Origin: Chloroflexota bacterium
Lineage (GTDB): Bacteria > Chloroflexota > Dehalococcoidia > Lucifugimonadales > QGNO01
DNA: 64,000 bases
Direction: 5' to 3'
NCBI GenBank assembly: GCA_003228195.2
Contig: QGNO01000001.1
Coordinates: 1-64,000, forward strand
This document shows positions 12,354-45,467 of this stretch, one piece after another. Position numbers and translations under genes: made by a program. Positions within the stretch are counted from its first letter, which is position 1; the number at the start of each line of letters is the position of its first letter. The notes under the pieces are model-generated. The model did no database searches and was not told the origin of the DNA. It saw only the letters and a program-made list of their open reading frames with translations.

Positions 12354-13772
12354 CTAGACACCTGTTAGCAGGCGTCCTTCTTCTAGTAGCAGCGAAACGT
12401 CGTTTTCTTTTCTAGATTCTGCATAGATCCTCAGCAATGGTTCAGTTCCTGAAAAACGTATAAGCAGCCAGCTACCGTCTTCTAGTGTGTAACGCACTCC
12501 GTCATGATCGTCACGATGTAAGACCTTCAATCCGATCAGTGACCCTAGTTTTTTTGAATGAACACGGCTCTCGACTTTCTGCCGGTCTTCCCCAGAAAAC
12601 GGGATATCAAGCCGGTCGTAGTAGTGGGCGCCAACTTTGCTGAACAAATACTCTAATAGCTCCGAAGGTCGTTTACCGGTCCTTATGACCATGTCTATAA
12701 GGAATAAACCACTTAGAATGCCGTCACGTTCTGGTATATGACCTCTAAATGCGAACCCACCACTTTCTTCCCCCGCTGCTAAAGCATTCTCCTTTATCAT
12801 CAATGGTCCCAATGATTTGAATCCAACGGGAGCATCATATACAGGTACGTTGAAAAGTTCCCCTAATTTGTAAATCATACTAGTCATAGTTGTTGATTTT
12901 ACCAATGGCCCAGTTTGCCCTCTTTGTTCTAGTAGGTACATAACCAACAGCGAGAAAGTCTGCAGTGTATTGATGTATCTACCGTTTTCGTCCATCAATC
13001 CAACCCGATCAGCATCACCGTCCAGTGCTATGCCAATATCGGCTCCACTCGATTGTATGCATTCTGCAAGAGGAGTTAAATTATGTTTGACTGGCTCGGG
13101 TTGAATCATTCCTGGAAACGCGGGATTGGGGGTTGCTCTGATCTCGTTGACGGTCGTTTTCCCTCCCTCTAAGAGCTGTGTAAGATAACCTCCTCCTGCA
13201 CCGTGCATTGCGTCCACGGCAACCTTCAATCCGCTATTTTTAATTGCAGTCAAGTCTACAAGTTTGGCAAGGTGGTTAATATACGGGGGGGTAGGGTCTA
13301 TATCTTGCAATAAGTTCTGGTCCCGTGCTTTGTTGAGTGAAAGCATTTCTATCGAACCTTGCGCGGCCTTGTTGATTTCTGTTTCTAAAGCTTCAACTAT
13401 TTCCGACGATGCACTGCCTGCGTATTCTGGTTTGTATTTGAATCCATTCCAGTTTGGCGGGTTATGGCTAGCTGTAATTACCACGCCTCCTCCAGCAGAC
13501 CGATCCATTATGTTGTAACTTACTGCTGGAGTTGGTGCTGTCGTAGAACAGAGGTAGGTGGGCACTTGAAGAGCGGTTGTGACGCTTGCTACCTCGGATG
13601 CGAAATCTTTAGATGCAAAACGGGTATCGTAGCCTACCACTAGGCCACGTTGATCTAACCCTCTCTTCTTTAAGTACAGTGCAGTGCCAGCTGCACAGGC
13701 TCTCACATTCTCCGCAGTGTAATCCCATCCGATTAGTGCACGCCAACCGTCTGTACCGAATCGGATGGTCAT
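12354..13772 (-). CDS. Phosphoglucomutase/phosphomannomutase family enzyme
   Basis: This 472-residue alpha-D-phosphohexomutase has all four family signatures. The phosphoserine loop is TASHNPPNWNGFKY, the Mg-binding loop LDGDADRVGL, the sugar loop GEESGGFAFRG and the C-terminal phosphate-binding loop RFSGTEPLLRIYAE. It interconverts 6-phospho and 1-phospho sugars; sequence alone does not fix glucose, mannose or glucosamine as substrate. It is the last gene of the SAM-riboswitch unit, 13 bases after metK, an unusual partner for methionine-cycle genes. Confidence 0.9.
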   Translation of the reverse strand: MTIRFGTDGWRALIGWDYTAENVRACAAGTALYLKKRGLDQRGLVVGYDTRFASKDFASEVASVTTALQVPTYLCSTTAPTPAVSYNIMDRSAGGGVVITASHNPPNWNGFKYKPEYAGSASSEIVEALETEINKAAQGSIEMLSLNKARDQNLLQDIDPTPPYINHLAKLVDLTAIKNSGLKVAVDAMHGAGGGYLTQLLEGGKTTVNEIRATPNPAFPGMIQPEPVKHNLTPLAECIQSSGADIGIALDGDADRVGLMDENGRYINTLQTFSLLVMYLLEQRGQTGPLVKSTTMTSMIYKLGELFNVPVYDAPVGFKSLGPLMIKENALAAGEESGGFAFRGHIPERDGILSGLFLIDMVIRTGKRPSELLEYLFSKVGAHYYDRLDIPFSGEDRQKVESRVHSKKLGSLIGLKVLHRDDHDGVRYTLEDGSWLLIRFSGTEPLLRIYAESRKENDVSLLLEEGRLLTGV

Positions 13773-13785
13773 ATTGAGATCTCCT

Positions 13786-14997
13786 TCAATTTATTCCAGC
13801 CTCAGCCTTAAGTAATTCGGCTTTATCAGTTTGCTCCCATGGTAGATTCAAGTCGTTACGTCCAAAGTGTCCGTACGCTGCCGTTTGCTTGTATATCGGT
13901 CGGCGTAAGTCTAACTCGCTGATTATGGCGTCAGGCCGTAGATCAAAGTGCTTATTGATGAGTTTAAGAATTATTTCGTCCGAGACTTTCCCGGTATCGA
14001 AAGTCTCTATGCTAATTGATATAGGACTAGCTACACCTATAGCGTAGGAAATCTGTACTTCAATTCTTTCAGCCAATTGTGCCGCCACAACGGTTTTTGC
14101 TACCCAACGAGCTGCATAAGCAGCTGACCTGTCCACTTTTGTGGGGTCTTTTCCTGAAAAAGCTCCTCCGCCATGCCTAGCAGCTCCGCCATAAGTATCT
14201 ACGAGAATCTTACGCCCAGTGAGCCCGGTATCAGCGTGTGGGCCTCCGATCACGAATCTTCCGGAGGGATTAATGAAAAACTTCGTTTCGTTGTCGATAA
14301 GATTGGAGGGTATAACTTTTTCAATTACGTCTTTATGCAAATCAGCAGTCAATGTACTCATGGTTACATCGGGCCCATGTTGTGTGCTTAGTACCACGGT
14401 ATGAACCCGCTTAGGTTTCCCATATGCGTACTCTATAGTTACTTGAGACTTCCCGTCGGGTCGCAAGTATTCTAATTCGCGGGTTTTCCTTACCGTTGCA
14501 AGTTGTTGAGTCAGTTTGTGAGCGAGGGATATTGGTAAAGGCATAAGTTCTGGTGTTTCGTCACATGCAAATCCTACCATCATTCCTTGATCACCAGCCC
14601 CAGTTGTTTCTTCCTCTTGACTGCTGGATTTTCCACGTGTCTCGAATGAATTGGTAACCGCTACTGAAATGTCAGGAGATTGTTCTTGTACAGATACCAT
14701 TACACCGCATGTTTTGGAGTCTATACCGAAATCTGAGTTGGTATATCCCACTTCTTCTAAGGTATCCCTTGCTATCTGAGCAATATCTACGTAGCTTGCG
14801 GTAGTAATTTCCCCCATTACTACTACAAGCCCAGTTGTGGTAATTACCTCGCAAGCTACTCTGGCTAGGGGATCTTGACTTAATATAATATCCAATATCC
14901 CATCTGAAATTTGATCGCAAAGTTTGTCTGGGTGCCCTTCAGTCACCGATTCAGAGGTGAACAAGTAAGAAGGTGATTCTAGAAAACTTGGTGCCAA
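13786..14997 (-). CDS. metK: S-adenosylmethionine synthetase
   Basis: The 403-residue enzyme makes SAM from methionine and ATP. It has the N-terminal [20 protein letters not shown], the signature [16 protein letters not shown] and the P-loop-like [19 protein letters not shown]. The length is normal. It lies 37 bases after ahcY and 13 before the mutase on the - strand, in a unit headed by a SAM-I riboswitch, so transcription should fall when SAM is high. AGGAGG lies just upstream of the ATG. Confidence 0.97.
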
Positions 14998-15034: not shown

Positions 15035-17271
<2,237 letters not shown>

Positions 17272-17279
<8 letters not shown>

Positions 17280-17706
17280 TTTCGGCTTTCTTAACTGGGC
17301 GCTTAGGTGGCTTCGGTTTTTCTTCTTCGGCTGACTTCTTTGAAGTAGTCCGAGTTTGCTTTGGCTTTTCTTTGCTAGCTGAGTCGGGCTGGTCCGCCTT
17401 TTTTAATTTACCTGCATTTCTTTTGTTGGAAGACTCATCTGTGATGGCAGACGATTCAATTTCGTCAGCTTGTTGCTCTGGTTTCAGTGGAGCCTCAAGC
17501 TCCACTTTATGAGCACTTTTTGCGCTCTTTGCAGGGCTTGTTGCTGTTGTGGCTTGTGATGAGCTTTGTTTTACATTTGAAACCGCACGTCTACTATGTC
17601 GTTCTTGTGCTGTAGGCTCAGGCAAAGTAGATACTTTTTGTAGGGATTCAAATCTTTTCTTGGTTTGGCGCTGCTTTCGTTTAGCTACTTTTTTGCGTTT
17701 GTTCAT
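17272..17706 (-). CDS. Lys/Ser/Ala/Glu-rich disordered basic protein
   Basis: The 144-residue product has no globular domain that I can recognise. It opens with a very basic segment (MNKRKKVAKRKQRQTKKRF). A middle part rich in Ser, Ala, Gln and Glu follows, and then a histone-H1-like C-terminus of Lys, Pro and Ala ending PPKRPVKKAESA. Such composition fits nucleic-acid binding or a structural tail, but no function is assigned. It lies 29 bases after the rhodanese gene and overlaps the PfkB kinase start, so it belongs to the SAM-riboswitch unit. Confidence 0.75.
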
Positions 17707-17735: not shown

Positions 17736-18083
17736 TTAACTGTCGTTTCCGTAAGTTGTTGGGTATCCACGGTCTATCCAAGCTCCGGTTCCTTCTTCTA
17801 TGTTAAATAAGGCGCTCGATTCTCTACCCATCGCTGCTGCCATTTCACAGGCCAGGGCACTTCGAACTCCTTGGGCGCATATGAATAGCAAATCTCCACC
17901 ACTTGGCAGACTATCGACCCGGGATATTACATCTTCGACAGGTATGTGAATGGCACCACTGACGTGACCAGCGTTCCATTCATCAAGCTGCCTAACGTCC
18001 ACCACAGTGGAATTCGCCTCCCCATATAATTTATAGGCCTCATCGACGGAAATTCTTTTGAATGGTTCACTTTGTTCCGACAT
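17736..18083 (-). CDS. Single-domain rhodanese-like protein
   Basis: This is a 115-residue rhodanese domain. The active-site loop FICAQGVRSA has Cys and Arg in the expected CxxxxR spacing, and VVDVRQLDEWNAGHVSGAIHIP is the CH2A-like motif near the N-terminus. Such proteins carry sulfane sulfur as a persulfide. It is 23 bases downstream of the MtnA-like gene and under the SAM-I riboswitch. A role linked to sulfur amino acid metabolism is likely, but the partner is unknown. Confidence 0.92.
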   Translation of the reverse strand: MSEQSEPFKRISVDEAYKLYGEANSTVVDVRQLDEWNAGHVSGAIHIPVEDVISRVDSLPSGGDLLFICAQGVRSALACEMAAAMGRESSALFNIEEGTGAWIDRGYPTTYGNDS

Positions 18084-18106: not shown

Positions 18107-19207
18107 TTAACTTTTTGCGAACGATTGTCCATGTGACATTTCTTTGGAATCTTCTTGGTGTATCCCAGTATTGGGCTTGGAGAATTTCTCAAGATCATTG
18201 CCGAAAGGCGGTTCAATAGTACCTTTTTCAGTAACGATTCCAGTTATATATTTGCTTGGGGTGATATCAACAGAAGGATTGTGCATGTTTACCCCTTTTG
18301 GAACTATCAGTGGCTTACTGAATTGGAGTATTTCTGTTGATAGTCGGTCTACGAGCCCGATCGACTCCCATGTTTTCTCAGATTGGTCTATATTCGAAGT
18401 CGGAGACATTACATAGAAAGGCACTTGGTTTGCATGTGCGATCACGGCGAGGGGATAGGTGCCTATTACTCCCGCCACATCTCCAGTAGGAGAAATTCTG
18501 TCACCTCCCACCACGACACAATTCACCTTACCAGAGGCGATATATTTACCCGATGCTGAATCCACAATTAGTGTGCTTGGTATTCCGAGCTGAACTAGTT
18601 CCCACATTGTGAGCCTAGAACCCTCCAGCATCGGCCTTGTTTCAGCTACGATGACCTGCAATTTCTTGCTGCGATTGTGTGCTGATCTTATGGCTCCCAA
18701 AGCTGTACCATACCCAGTAGTTGCCAAAGCCCCGCTATTAGACATGGTTAGAATAGCCCCTTCCGTAGGCAATAGATACGAGCCAATTTCTCCAATGAGT
18801 TGATTTGCTGCCAAGTCTTCCCGGTGTATTGCTATAGCCTCGTCTTCCATTTGGCTTCGCACTGACGAAATGACCTTAGCCGCATATCCTGCTAGAAGAA
18901 CCCGAGAGATCGACTTTTCAAGACTGAGGTTCATTGGATTTGCATCTAGCACTTCTTTGCCAACATCTCCTAAGTAGTTAAACATTCTTTGTAAGTCGAG
19001 GGTGTTAATGGACTTGGATGCCAGTACCAACGCGTATGCGCCTGCGACCGCAACTAAAGAAGTGCCCCTTATCTGCATGTTGTTTACAGTTGAAATGACT
19101 TCCGTGTGTGTGTGGACAGTCACTACAGACTGCTCTTGCGGAAGCATTAGCTGGTCTAGCAAGCGTAAGGAATCTCCGGTCCATTCTAACGGGACTATTT
19201 CGGGCAT
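18107..19207 (-). CDS. MtnA/eIF2B-alpha-family isomerase with Cys-to-Ser change
   Basis: The 366-residue product matches methylthioribose-1-phosphate isomerase (MtnA) and related aldose-phosphate isomerases: MQIRGTSLVAVAGAYAL, SGALATTGYGTALGAIRSA and VVGGDRISPTGDVAGVIGTY. The Asp of GGDRI is kept. In MtnA the catalytic Cys lies in a TxCNxG motif; here the segment reads TMSNSG (ATG TCT AAT AGC GGG), so the Cys is Ser. Activity may therefore be altered or lost. The start ATG 19207 has CGGAGA upstream; an ATG at 19225 would begin inside the terminator tail. It is the first gene after the SAM-I riboswitch. Confidence 0.85.
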   Translation of the reverse strand: MPEIVPLEWTGDSLRLLDQLMLPQEQSVVTVHTHTEVISTVNNMQIRGTSLVAVAGAYALVLASKSINTLDLQRMFNYLGDVGKEVLDANPMNLSLEKSISRVLLAGYAAKVISSVRSQMEDEAIAIHREDLAANQLIGEIGSYLLPTEGAILTMSNSGALATTGYGTALGAIRSAHNRSKKLQVIVAETRPMLEGSRLTMWELVQLGIPSTLIVDSASGKYIASGKVNCVVVGGDRISPTGDVAGVIGTYPLAVIAHANQVPFYVMSPTSNIDQSEKTWESIGLVDRLSTEILQFSKPLIVPKGVNMHNPSVDITPSKYITGIVTEKGTIEPPFGNDLEKFSKPNTGIHQEDSKEMSHGQSFAKS

Positions 19208-19225
19208 ATGGTTTCTCCGGTACAT

Positions 19226-19260: not shown

Positions 19261-19382
19261 CTCTTCGCTCCCATCTTTCAAGCTGTCAAGCTTGCCGGAG
19301 TTGGCACCGTATCGCTTTTTCATATATGCGACCGGTTGCCGGGCTTCACAGGGCCGGTTCCCTCTGCCACTCTTGATAAGAG
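19261..19382 (-). ncRNA. SAM-I (S-box) riboswitch aptamer
   Basis: Read on the - strand, the leader begins CTCTTATCAAGAGTGGCAGA, followed by the conserved GGGAACCGGCCCTGTGAAGC and CCCGGCAACC core, then GGTGCCAACTCC. The 5' CTCTT pairs with AAGAG at the far end to close P1. These are the hallmarks of the SAM-I class, which binds S-adenosylmethionine and promotes termination. It controls the - strand unit running from the MtnA-like gene to the mutase, including ahcY and metK. Confidence 0.95.
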
Positions 19383-44099: not shown

Positions 44100-44331
44100 A
44101 ATAACATGCTGAGAACGGAGATAGTAAGTCTTTAGCAATGGTCAGAGAGCCGGATAAGGTGAGAGCCGGTACAAAATGCGAAGGCTGAATGGGTCCGGGA
44201 GCAGCAACCCGAAATCGGAAGAAAGTAGGCGTTGCCGGAGGAGCACCGATAACTGCTCAGTCGCATGTGTCGGCAATACTAAATGCGATGAAAGGTCCAC
44301 AAGTTGTGGATGAATAAGGGTGGCACCACGG
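44100..44331 (+). ncRNA. T-box riboswitch leader, tryptophan-specific
   Basis: The leader has the T-box landmarks. An AGAGAGCCGG...GGTGAGAGCCGG stem I region comes first. A likely UGG (Trp) specifier follows at 44190-44192, preceded by GAA as in many T-boxes. The invariant T-box element AGGGTGGCACCACGG lies at 44317-44331, next to an intrinsic terminator. Uncharged tRNA-Trp would bind the specifier and the T-box bulge to favour the antiterminator. The genes below (trpS, trpE-B) agree with Trp specificity. The specifier was read by eye, without folding. Confidence 0.93.
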
Positions 44332-44370
44332 AAAAGCCCCGTCCCTGTTGGGATGGGGCTTTTCCGTTTA
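44329..44370 (+). terminator. Intrinsic terminator of the Trp T-box
   Basis: The arms CGGAAAAGCCCC (44329-44340) and GGGGCTTTTCCG (44355-44366) pair perfectly, with an inner GTCCC/GGGAT extension and a short TGTT loop, followed by TTTA. The 5' arm begins inside the T-box element, so terminator and antiterminator are mutually exclusive. Confidence 0.92.
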
Positions 44371-44447: not shown

Positions 44448-45467
44448 TTGGTGACAAATAAAGACAAGAAACGCATATTAACAGGTGTCAGGCCCACTGG
44501 GGCTTTGCACTTAGGACATTACGTTGGTGCCCTAGAGAATTGGACTAGGCTTCAAGAAGAGTACGATTGCTTCTTTCTTATCGCTGATTATCAGGCGATG
44601 GGAGACCATTTGGATGACATTGAGGGTATAAGACGTTCAGTATATGAAGTAACTCTAGATTGGCTTAGTGTTGGTTTAGATCCGGGAAAAAGTTCGTTTG
44701 TCATACAGAGCCATGTGCCGGAGCATGCTGAGCTCGCGATGCTGCTGTCTATGGTAACTCCGTTAGGATGGTTGGAGCGTAATCCTACATTGAAAGCTGA
44801 GCGTGTGCGGCTAGAGAGTGAGGGACTGTCTGTTGGTTTCTATACGTATCCAGTAAGCCAAGTAGCTGATATAGCACTGCCAAAAGCAAACTTGGTTCCT
44901 GTAGGTGAAGATCAGGTCCCGCATATTGAGATGACTAGGGAGGTTGTCAGACGCTTTAATCGAATGTTTGGGCAAACTTTCCCAGAGCCCGATAGCTTGG
45001 TTGGGCGAGTTGCCAGGCTTCCTGGCACGGATGGAGAAGCCAAGATGAGTAAGAGTTTAGGCAACGTGATATATCTCTCTGATGAAGAGGAGGCCGTGAA
45101 TCAGAAAGTGAGAAGTATGTACACCGACCCCAACCGGACCCGCGCAGATATACCTGGGCGAGTTGAAGGAAATCCAGTGTTTGCTTATCACGATGCGTTC
45201 AATTCGGACCATGATGAAGTTAGTGACCTTAAAGATCGTTATACAAAAGGCTTGGTAGGGGATGTTGAAGTGAAACAGAAACTGGCGAATGCGATAAACA
45301 GATTTCTGGATCCCATCAGAGAGAAAAGGACCTACTATGAGGGGCATCCTATGGTGGTTAAGGAGGCATTGTTTGAGGGGACAAGAAAGGCCAAGTCGGT
45401 TGCGGAAGCTACAATGCGTGAAGTGAGAGAAAAAATGGGCATCAGTTATTTTGTTGACGAATCTTGA
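44448..45467 (+). CDS. trpS: Tryptophanyl-tRNA synthetase
   Basis: The 339-residue class I synthetase charges tRNA-Trp. The HIGH-type motif is ALHLGHYVGALENW after TGVRPTG, and the KMSKS loop is AKMSKSLGN. The start is TTG 44448 or GTG 44451, with GAGGAAG just upstream; the surrounding bases do not decide. It is the first gene after the T-box and is followed 37 bases later by trpE, so tRNA charging and Trp synthesis respond to the same signal. Confidence 0.95.
   Translation: MVTNKDKKRILTGVRPTGALHLGHYVGALENWTRLQEEYDCFFLIADYQAMGDHLDDIEGIRRSVYEVTLDWLSVGLDPGKSSFVIQSHVPEHAELAMLLSMVTPLGWLERNPTLKAERVRLESEGLSVGFYTYPVSQVADIALPKANLVPVGEDQVPHIEMTREVVRRFNRMFGQTFPEPDSLVGRVARLPGTDGEAKMSKSLGNVIYLSDEEEAVNQKVRSMYTDPNRTRADIPGRVEGNPVFAYHDAFNSDHDEVSDLKDRYTKGLVGDVEVKQKLANAINRFLDPIREKRTYYEGHPMVVKEALFEGTRKAKSVAEATMREVREKMGISYFVDES

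Follow-up and report, generated by a model that had tools for sequence, protein, structure and literature searches.

The window analysed here (the whole stretch of 64,000 nucleotides) contains, behind a SAM riboswitch, a homologue of MtnA in which the catalytic Cys and several other residues lining the substrate site are replaced. We consider it probable (about 0.7) that this protein is a pseudoenzyme derived from MtnA, whose fold or binding function was kept after the supply of its substrate, methylthioribose 1-phosphate (MTR-1-P), had been lost. The regulatory core of eIF2B is believed to descend from isomerases of the MtnA fold, but there the transition from enzyme to regulator lies far back and is hidden from view. 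In the bacterial group described here the loss of catalysis would be much younger, with active-looking sisters at about 50% identity and a plausible trigger, the loss of MtnP. Moreover, two lineages show different degrees of loss. In such a group the passage from enzyme to non-enzyme becomes accessible to experiments.

The gene, its leader and its operon

The gene occupies a minus-strand reading frame with its stop codon (TAA) at 18107-18109 and its start codon (ATG) at 19205-19207, and the sequence GGAG is located at 19215-19218, 7 bases ahead of the start. A longer alternative ATG, at 19225, falls within the U-run of the riboswitch terminator, therefore 19207 is the likely start. The aptamer upstream of mtnA exceeds the Rfam gathering score (44.4) and is followed by a hairpin and U-run; the folding of the leader, terminator hairpin included, is strong (z=-5.5). 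The frame and the RF00162 aptamer are in agreement with the earlier note on this DNA, which had described an MtnA homologue under a SAM riboswitch. As the protein is the only PF01008 member found in the genome (1.52-Mb assembly, 90% complete), the idea of a second copy accompanying a genuine MtnA was rejected.

Table 1. Features of the mtnA operon and of the encoded MtnA homologue (positions in the window)
Feature	Position	Strand	Basis
SAM (S-box) riboswitch aptamer	19268..19382	-	Rfam RF00162, 84.6 bits, E=1.5e-18
Intrinsic terminator hairpin with U-run, between aptamer and start codon	19226..19259	-	sequence and folding
Degenerate MtnA homologue, 366 aa	18107..19207	-	AlphaFold2, profile matches, PDB matches
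Asn90 replacing invariant Arg (RPTAVNL motif to NPMNLSL)	18938..18940	-	alignment
Ser156 (codon TCT) replacing catalytic Cys	18740..18742	-	sequence and alignment
Glu195 replacing invariant Gln (LQG to LEG)	18623..18625	-	alignment
Catalytic Asp236 (codon GAC), kept	18500..18502	-	sequence and alignment
Gly246-Val247 replacing invariant Asn-Lys (NKIGTY to GVIGTY)	18467..18472	-	alignment
Rhodanese-domain protein	17736..18083	-	Pfam and operon comparison
Small Lys-rich protein	17272..17706	-	operon comparison
PfkB-family kinase	16323..17279	-	Pfam PF00294
Adenosylhomocysteinase, ahcY	15035..16378	-	TIGR00936, 624 bits
Methionine adenosyltransferase, metK	13786..14997	-	TIGR01034, 579 bits
Phosphohexomutase (PGM/PMM family), closing the conserved block	12354..13772	-	profile matches and operon comparison

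Downstream of mtnA, the gene order is as follows: rhodanese, Lys-rich protein, PfkB kinase, ahcY, metK and phosphohexomutase. In the canonical relatives mtnP is situated directly behind mtnA, between it and the rhodanese gene, and it is gone from the window operon. The small Lys-rich protein, for which neither Pfam nor NCBIfam gave a match, has a counterpart at the equivalent operon position in a second degenerate family (genomes G031 and G231, see below). The proteins encoded at this site of the SAM operon (window 17272-17706, L080:7807-8112 and L086:10615-11070) are all small and Lys/Arg-rich, and share little sequence similarity past their basic start.

The active site in the window protein and in its relatives

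Codons 155-159 of mtnA read ATG TCT AAT AGC GGG and give the motif TMSNSG, as had been reported earlier, and the GGDRI, GALATTGYGTALGAIRSA and GVIGTY segments were all found in the translation. The protein was aligned with 111 canonical homologues from its own order, its own class and other phyla, among which 65 columns are near-invariant (at least 95% conserved). Position 156 is Cys in 111/111 of these homologues outside the degenerate group; Arg90, Gln195, Asn246 and Lys247, each found in 100% (rounded) of the canonical rows, are Asn, Glu, Gly and Val in the window protein, and its RGAPxxG motif is changed to RGTSxxA. In total, 17 of the 65 near-invariant columns are altered, the maximum in any of the 111 canonical rows being 4. 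The altered columns cluster in the active site, with 9 of the 15 active-site columns and 8 of the 50 columns elsewhere (Fisher P=0.0016); the active-site set is our own manual assignment, based on where the motifs lie and on the contacts reported for a related enzyme (PMC5789824). The change thus involves far more than the Cys alone and exceeds chance.

An assembly error or a pseudogene was rejected, as the differences are spread over many distinct active-site columns, the reading frame is unbroken and the genes of the operon follow each other as in the relatives. Takeover of catalysis by another Cys, the check proposed in the earlier note, was examined by alignment and rejected: the sole Cys of the protein, Cys230, is no substitute, since more than half of all homologues, canonical enzymes among them, have a Cys at this position in addition to a normal Cys156. 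The original observation therefore stands.

The window protein shares up to 52% identity with the canonical MtnA proteins of its own order, and 44-45% with a homologue encoded by two genomes of another family of this order, G031 and G231, in the same operon lacking mtnP. In the latter the motifs read THGNTG and GAQRI, i.e. the catalytic Cys is replaced by Gly and the catalytic Asp by Gln. Ser at the catalytic position, whose fixation the earlier note had suggested checking, is thus not fixed among the degenerate proteins. The remaining MtnA homologues of the order that were read at the residue level (about 70 lower-scoring matches lie outside this reading) have the canonical Cys wherever the stretch is present, and canonical sequences were also found at the 27 class-level loci with the highest scores beyond the three degenerate genomes and in the lone match on a viral contig. 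L078, a remote match (29%), is not an MtnA. A search of the literature, with subscription papers mostly outside its coverage, turned up no description of a catalytically dead MtnA from bacteria.

No SAM riboswitch was found ahead of the degenerate mtnA of G031 and G231. Control by the riboswitch is old in this operon and was inherited from canonical relatives, and its lack in the second family means that it neither defines the degenerate group nor holds the gene in place. In both genomes an alcohol-dehydrogenase-like gene (L080:5327-6382) is located 12 bases upstream of the degenerate mtnA.

What speaks against a pseudoenzyme is the catalytic Asp of the window protein, whose retention would be compatible with a remaining or modified activity of some kind. 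The protein might be a neofunctionalised isomerase acting on another sugar phosphate, with Asp236 as the base and with the role of the Cys either dispensed with or played by Ser156. Arg47-Gly48, Thr154, Asn157 and Gly159 are kept along with Asp236, and promiscuity is known among MtnA enzymes (PMC6302742). We regard such a change of substrate as unlikely, because the residues matching the 1-phosphate and sugar contacts (Arg90, Gln195 and Asn246-Lys247) are gone, G031 and G231, with the same operon, have retained neither the Asp nor the Cys, and a Cys-to-Ser exchange (C135S) is by itself sufficient to abolish catalysis in the related R15P isomerase of P. horikoshii, although the substrate is still bound (PMC5789824).

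Substrate supply, selection and descent

MtnP is present in 194/250 genomes of the order and missing from the window genome (G000), G031 and G231. Among the 140 order genomes with an MtnA match, 6 are without MtnP, namely these three and G117, G160 and G161, which carry a more distant MtnA with the Cys kept; the other side of this count is that MtnP accompanies MtnA in 134 of the 137 MtnA-matching genomes outside the degenerate three. As many as 50 of the 56 order genomes without MtnP are also without any MtnA match, therefore gene loss is the usual outcome and retention is exceptional. The link between the loss of MtnP and degeneration is given here without a P value, since only one or two events underlie the three degenerate genomes.

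The window genome gave no match to TIGR01694 (MtnP) or PF01048, and by these two families neither MtnP nor the MtnN step of the route through MtnN and MtnK was found in it as a source of substrate; the assembly is a draft (90% complete), in which a distant MtnP or nucleosidase might have been missed. G031 and G231 encode a nucleosidase-like PF01048 protein of 184 residues scoring below all curated cut-offs (L118:1417-1971 in G031), which may replace MtnP in G031. Both speD and speE are present and intact in the window genome, therefore MTA should still be made, and the loss of MTA production can be excluded as the cause. The presence of Aldolase_II does not cleanly separate the groups. It is likely that the loss of mtnP triggered the degeneration of MtnA. 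The window genome also encodes an amidohydrolase (L166:1318-2853) close to the 5'-deoxyadenosine/MTA deaminase families and below their curated cut-offs, which is a possible candidate for an alternative MTA route.

Comparison of G031 with G231 gave a dN/dS of 0.127 for mtnA (0.04-0.18 for its operon neighbours), therefore a protein devoid of either catalytic residue is under selection, and in this second family the selection is purifying. The window protein has no relatives close enough for dN/dS, and selection on it is suggested by the open frame, the gap-free alignment and the kept residues. Its gene contains no stops, whereas simulated neutral drift to 70% identity or less left no stop-free frame in 200 runs and produced about 5.6 stops at 70%. 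The alignment of the window protein with that of G031 spans 337 residues with zero gaps, and 41 of the 50 near-invariant columns outside the active site are kept in both. The AlphaFold2 model of the window protein shows a confident MtnA fold (pLDDT 87.7, pTM 0.86), and its best PDB matches are the MtnA proteins of T. maritima and B. subtilis (TM-scores of 0.94-0.96 when normalised by target length).

These results bear on another explanation, in which mtnA is a functionless, decaying remnant that was disabled recently, or whose open first frame merely spares the downstream ahcY and metK from polarity. The gene does head an operon containing essential genes, and the branch of the window protein is fast (0.79 changes per site versus 0.12-0.17 for its canonical f29 neighbours). 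On the other hand, polarity alone would not constrain amino acids in the way seen in the second family, stops and gaps are missing where drift should have introduced stops, and the MtnP-less genomes of the order have for the most part simply no mtnA, all of which makes decay improbable.

In a tree without eIF2B sequences, the window protein is nested deep within bacterial MtnA, among the MtnA proteins of its own order. With all columns included, the three degenerate proteins form one clade (support 98/94); after removal of the active-site columns a single degenerate clade is neither supported nor rejected (P-AU 0.47), and in a tree built from AhcY, MetK and PGM the three genomes fall together with weak support (57/37). 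Ser50 and Ser95, at columns invariant in the 111 canonical rows, are common to both degenerate lineages and would favour one origin of the group, within a range of one or two events.

Comparison with related families and possible function

Judged by profiles, the window protein is an MtnA (PRK05720, 319.2 bits with a cut-off of 271; TIGR00512, 306.3 bits with a cut-off of 279), and this may serve as a warning that profile-based annotation labels a dead-looking protein as a functional MtnA. It is like MtnA (PF01008) in fold, length and operon place, and differs from it in lacking the catalytic Cys of TxCNxG and the substrate-lining Arg90, Gln195, Asn246 and Lys247, in a genome without MtnP; the catalytic Asp of GxDR is present, and is Gln in G031 and G231. 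It is very improbable that an ordinary MtnA still isomerises MTR-1-P here by means of an unusual active site, in spite of the NCBIfam scores, as such cut-offs are blind to the replaced residues, no other Cys is in place and neither MtnP nor any PF01048 enzyme was found in the genome.

The protein does not belong to the ribose-1,5-bisphosphate isomerases either (TIGR00511, 148.6 bits with a cut-off of 314.1; Cys absent). The C135S mutant of R15Pi (structure 5yfs) carries the identical exchange and is dead yet substrate-binding, whereas the window protein has lost further contacts as well (PMC5789824). Human MRDI/MRI1 (4ldq, among the PDB matches) is, like the window protein, an MtnA homologue. 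MRI1 is said to act also outside salvage, in cell invasion, and is held to be an active MtnA, whereas in the window protein the site is gone.

Membership of an eIF2B-alpha-like family, also raised in the earlier note, did not hold, as the window protein falls inside bacterial MtnA, grouping with that of its own order, and scores 102 bits with PRK08335 (eIF2B-alpha/aIF2B; cut-off 339). The two proteins are alike in having a related fold, a lost catalytic Cys and a dead-looking isomerase site in a protein that is, or would be, non-enzymatic, and differ in origin, the window protein being an MtnA by descent. In eIF2B-alpha the position of the catalytic Cys is occupied by Ala or Gly and the 1-phosphate contacts are lost (PMC5789824), and its dead site accommodates sugar phosphates, which activate it (PMC8187479). 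The path of the putative bacterial pseudoenzyme would resemble the rise of eIF2B-alpha from sugar-phosphate isomerases in kind only. We know of no GEF partner in bacteria.

Of the two options put forward in the earlier note, an isomerase of altered specificity is thus the less likely, and a non-enzymatic protein is favoured by the alteration of the whole MTR-1-P site, the lack of MtnP and the second family without the Asp. We propose the following course of events. The ancestral operon would have consisted of the SAM riboswitch, mtnA, mtnP, the rhodanese gene, possibly the gene of the Lys-rich protein, the PfkB kinase gene, ahcY, metK and PGM. Once mtnP had been lost, MTR-1-P would no longer have been made by phosphorolysis, and the active site of MtnA would have been freed from constraint. 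In the window lineage the catalytic Cys has changed together with residues lining the phosphate, the sugar and the substrate, and in the second family both the Cys and the Asp have changed, while the fold and most other conserved residues are kept. Most probably the protein survives as a partner for binding, scaffolding or regulation that is expressed together with the enzymes of the SAM cycle. By analogy with eIF2B-alpha it might even be speculated, rather doubtfully, that a dead salvage isomerase senses a metabolite of the SAM cycle and regulates a partner, perhaps MetK, AhcY or the rhodanese of the operon.

Several other features were observed in the window. A near-perfect 27-bp tandem repeat (6.1 copies) at positions 1-165 encodes an acidic EVSDEAVVE repeat, which runs into a stop codon shortly before a gene for a ribosomal protein and is probably the tail of another ribosomal protein. 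A perfect 48-bp tandem repeat (3.2 copies, 927-1078) is located in the N-terminal extension of the ribosomal protein L5 gene (875-1654). Finally, a T-box leader (44102-44349, 101.8 bits) lies just upstream of a gene at 44448, likely encoding tryptophanyl-tRNA synthetase, which is followed by a trp operon.
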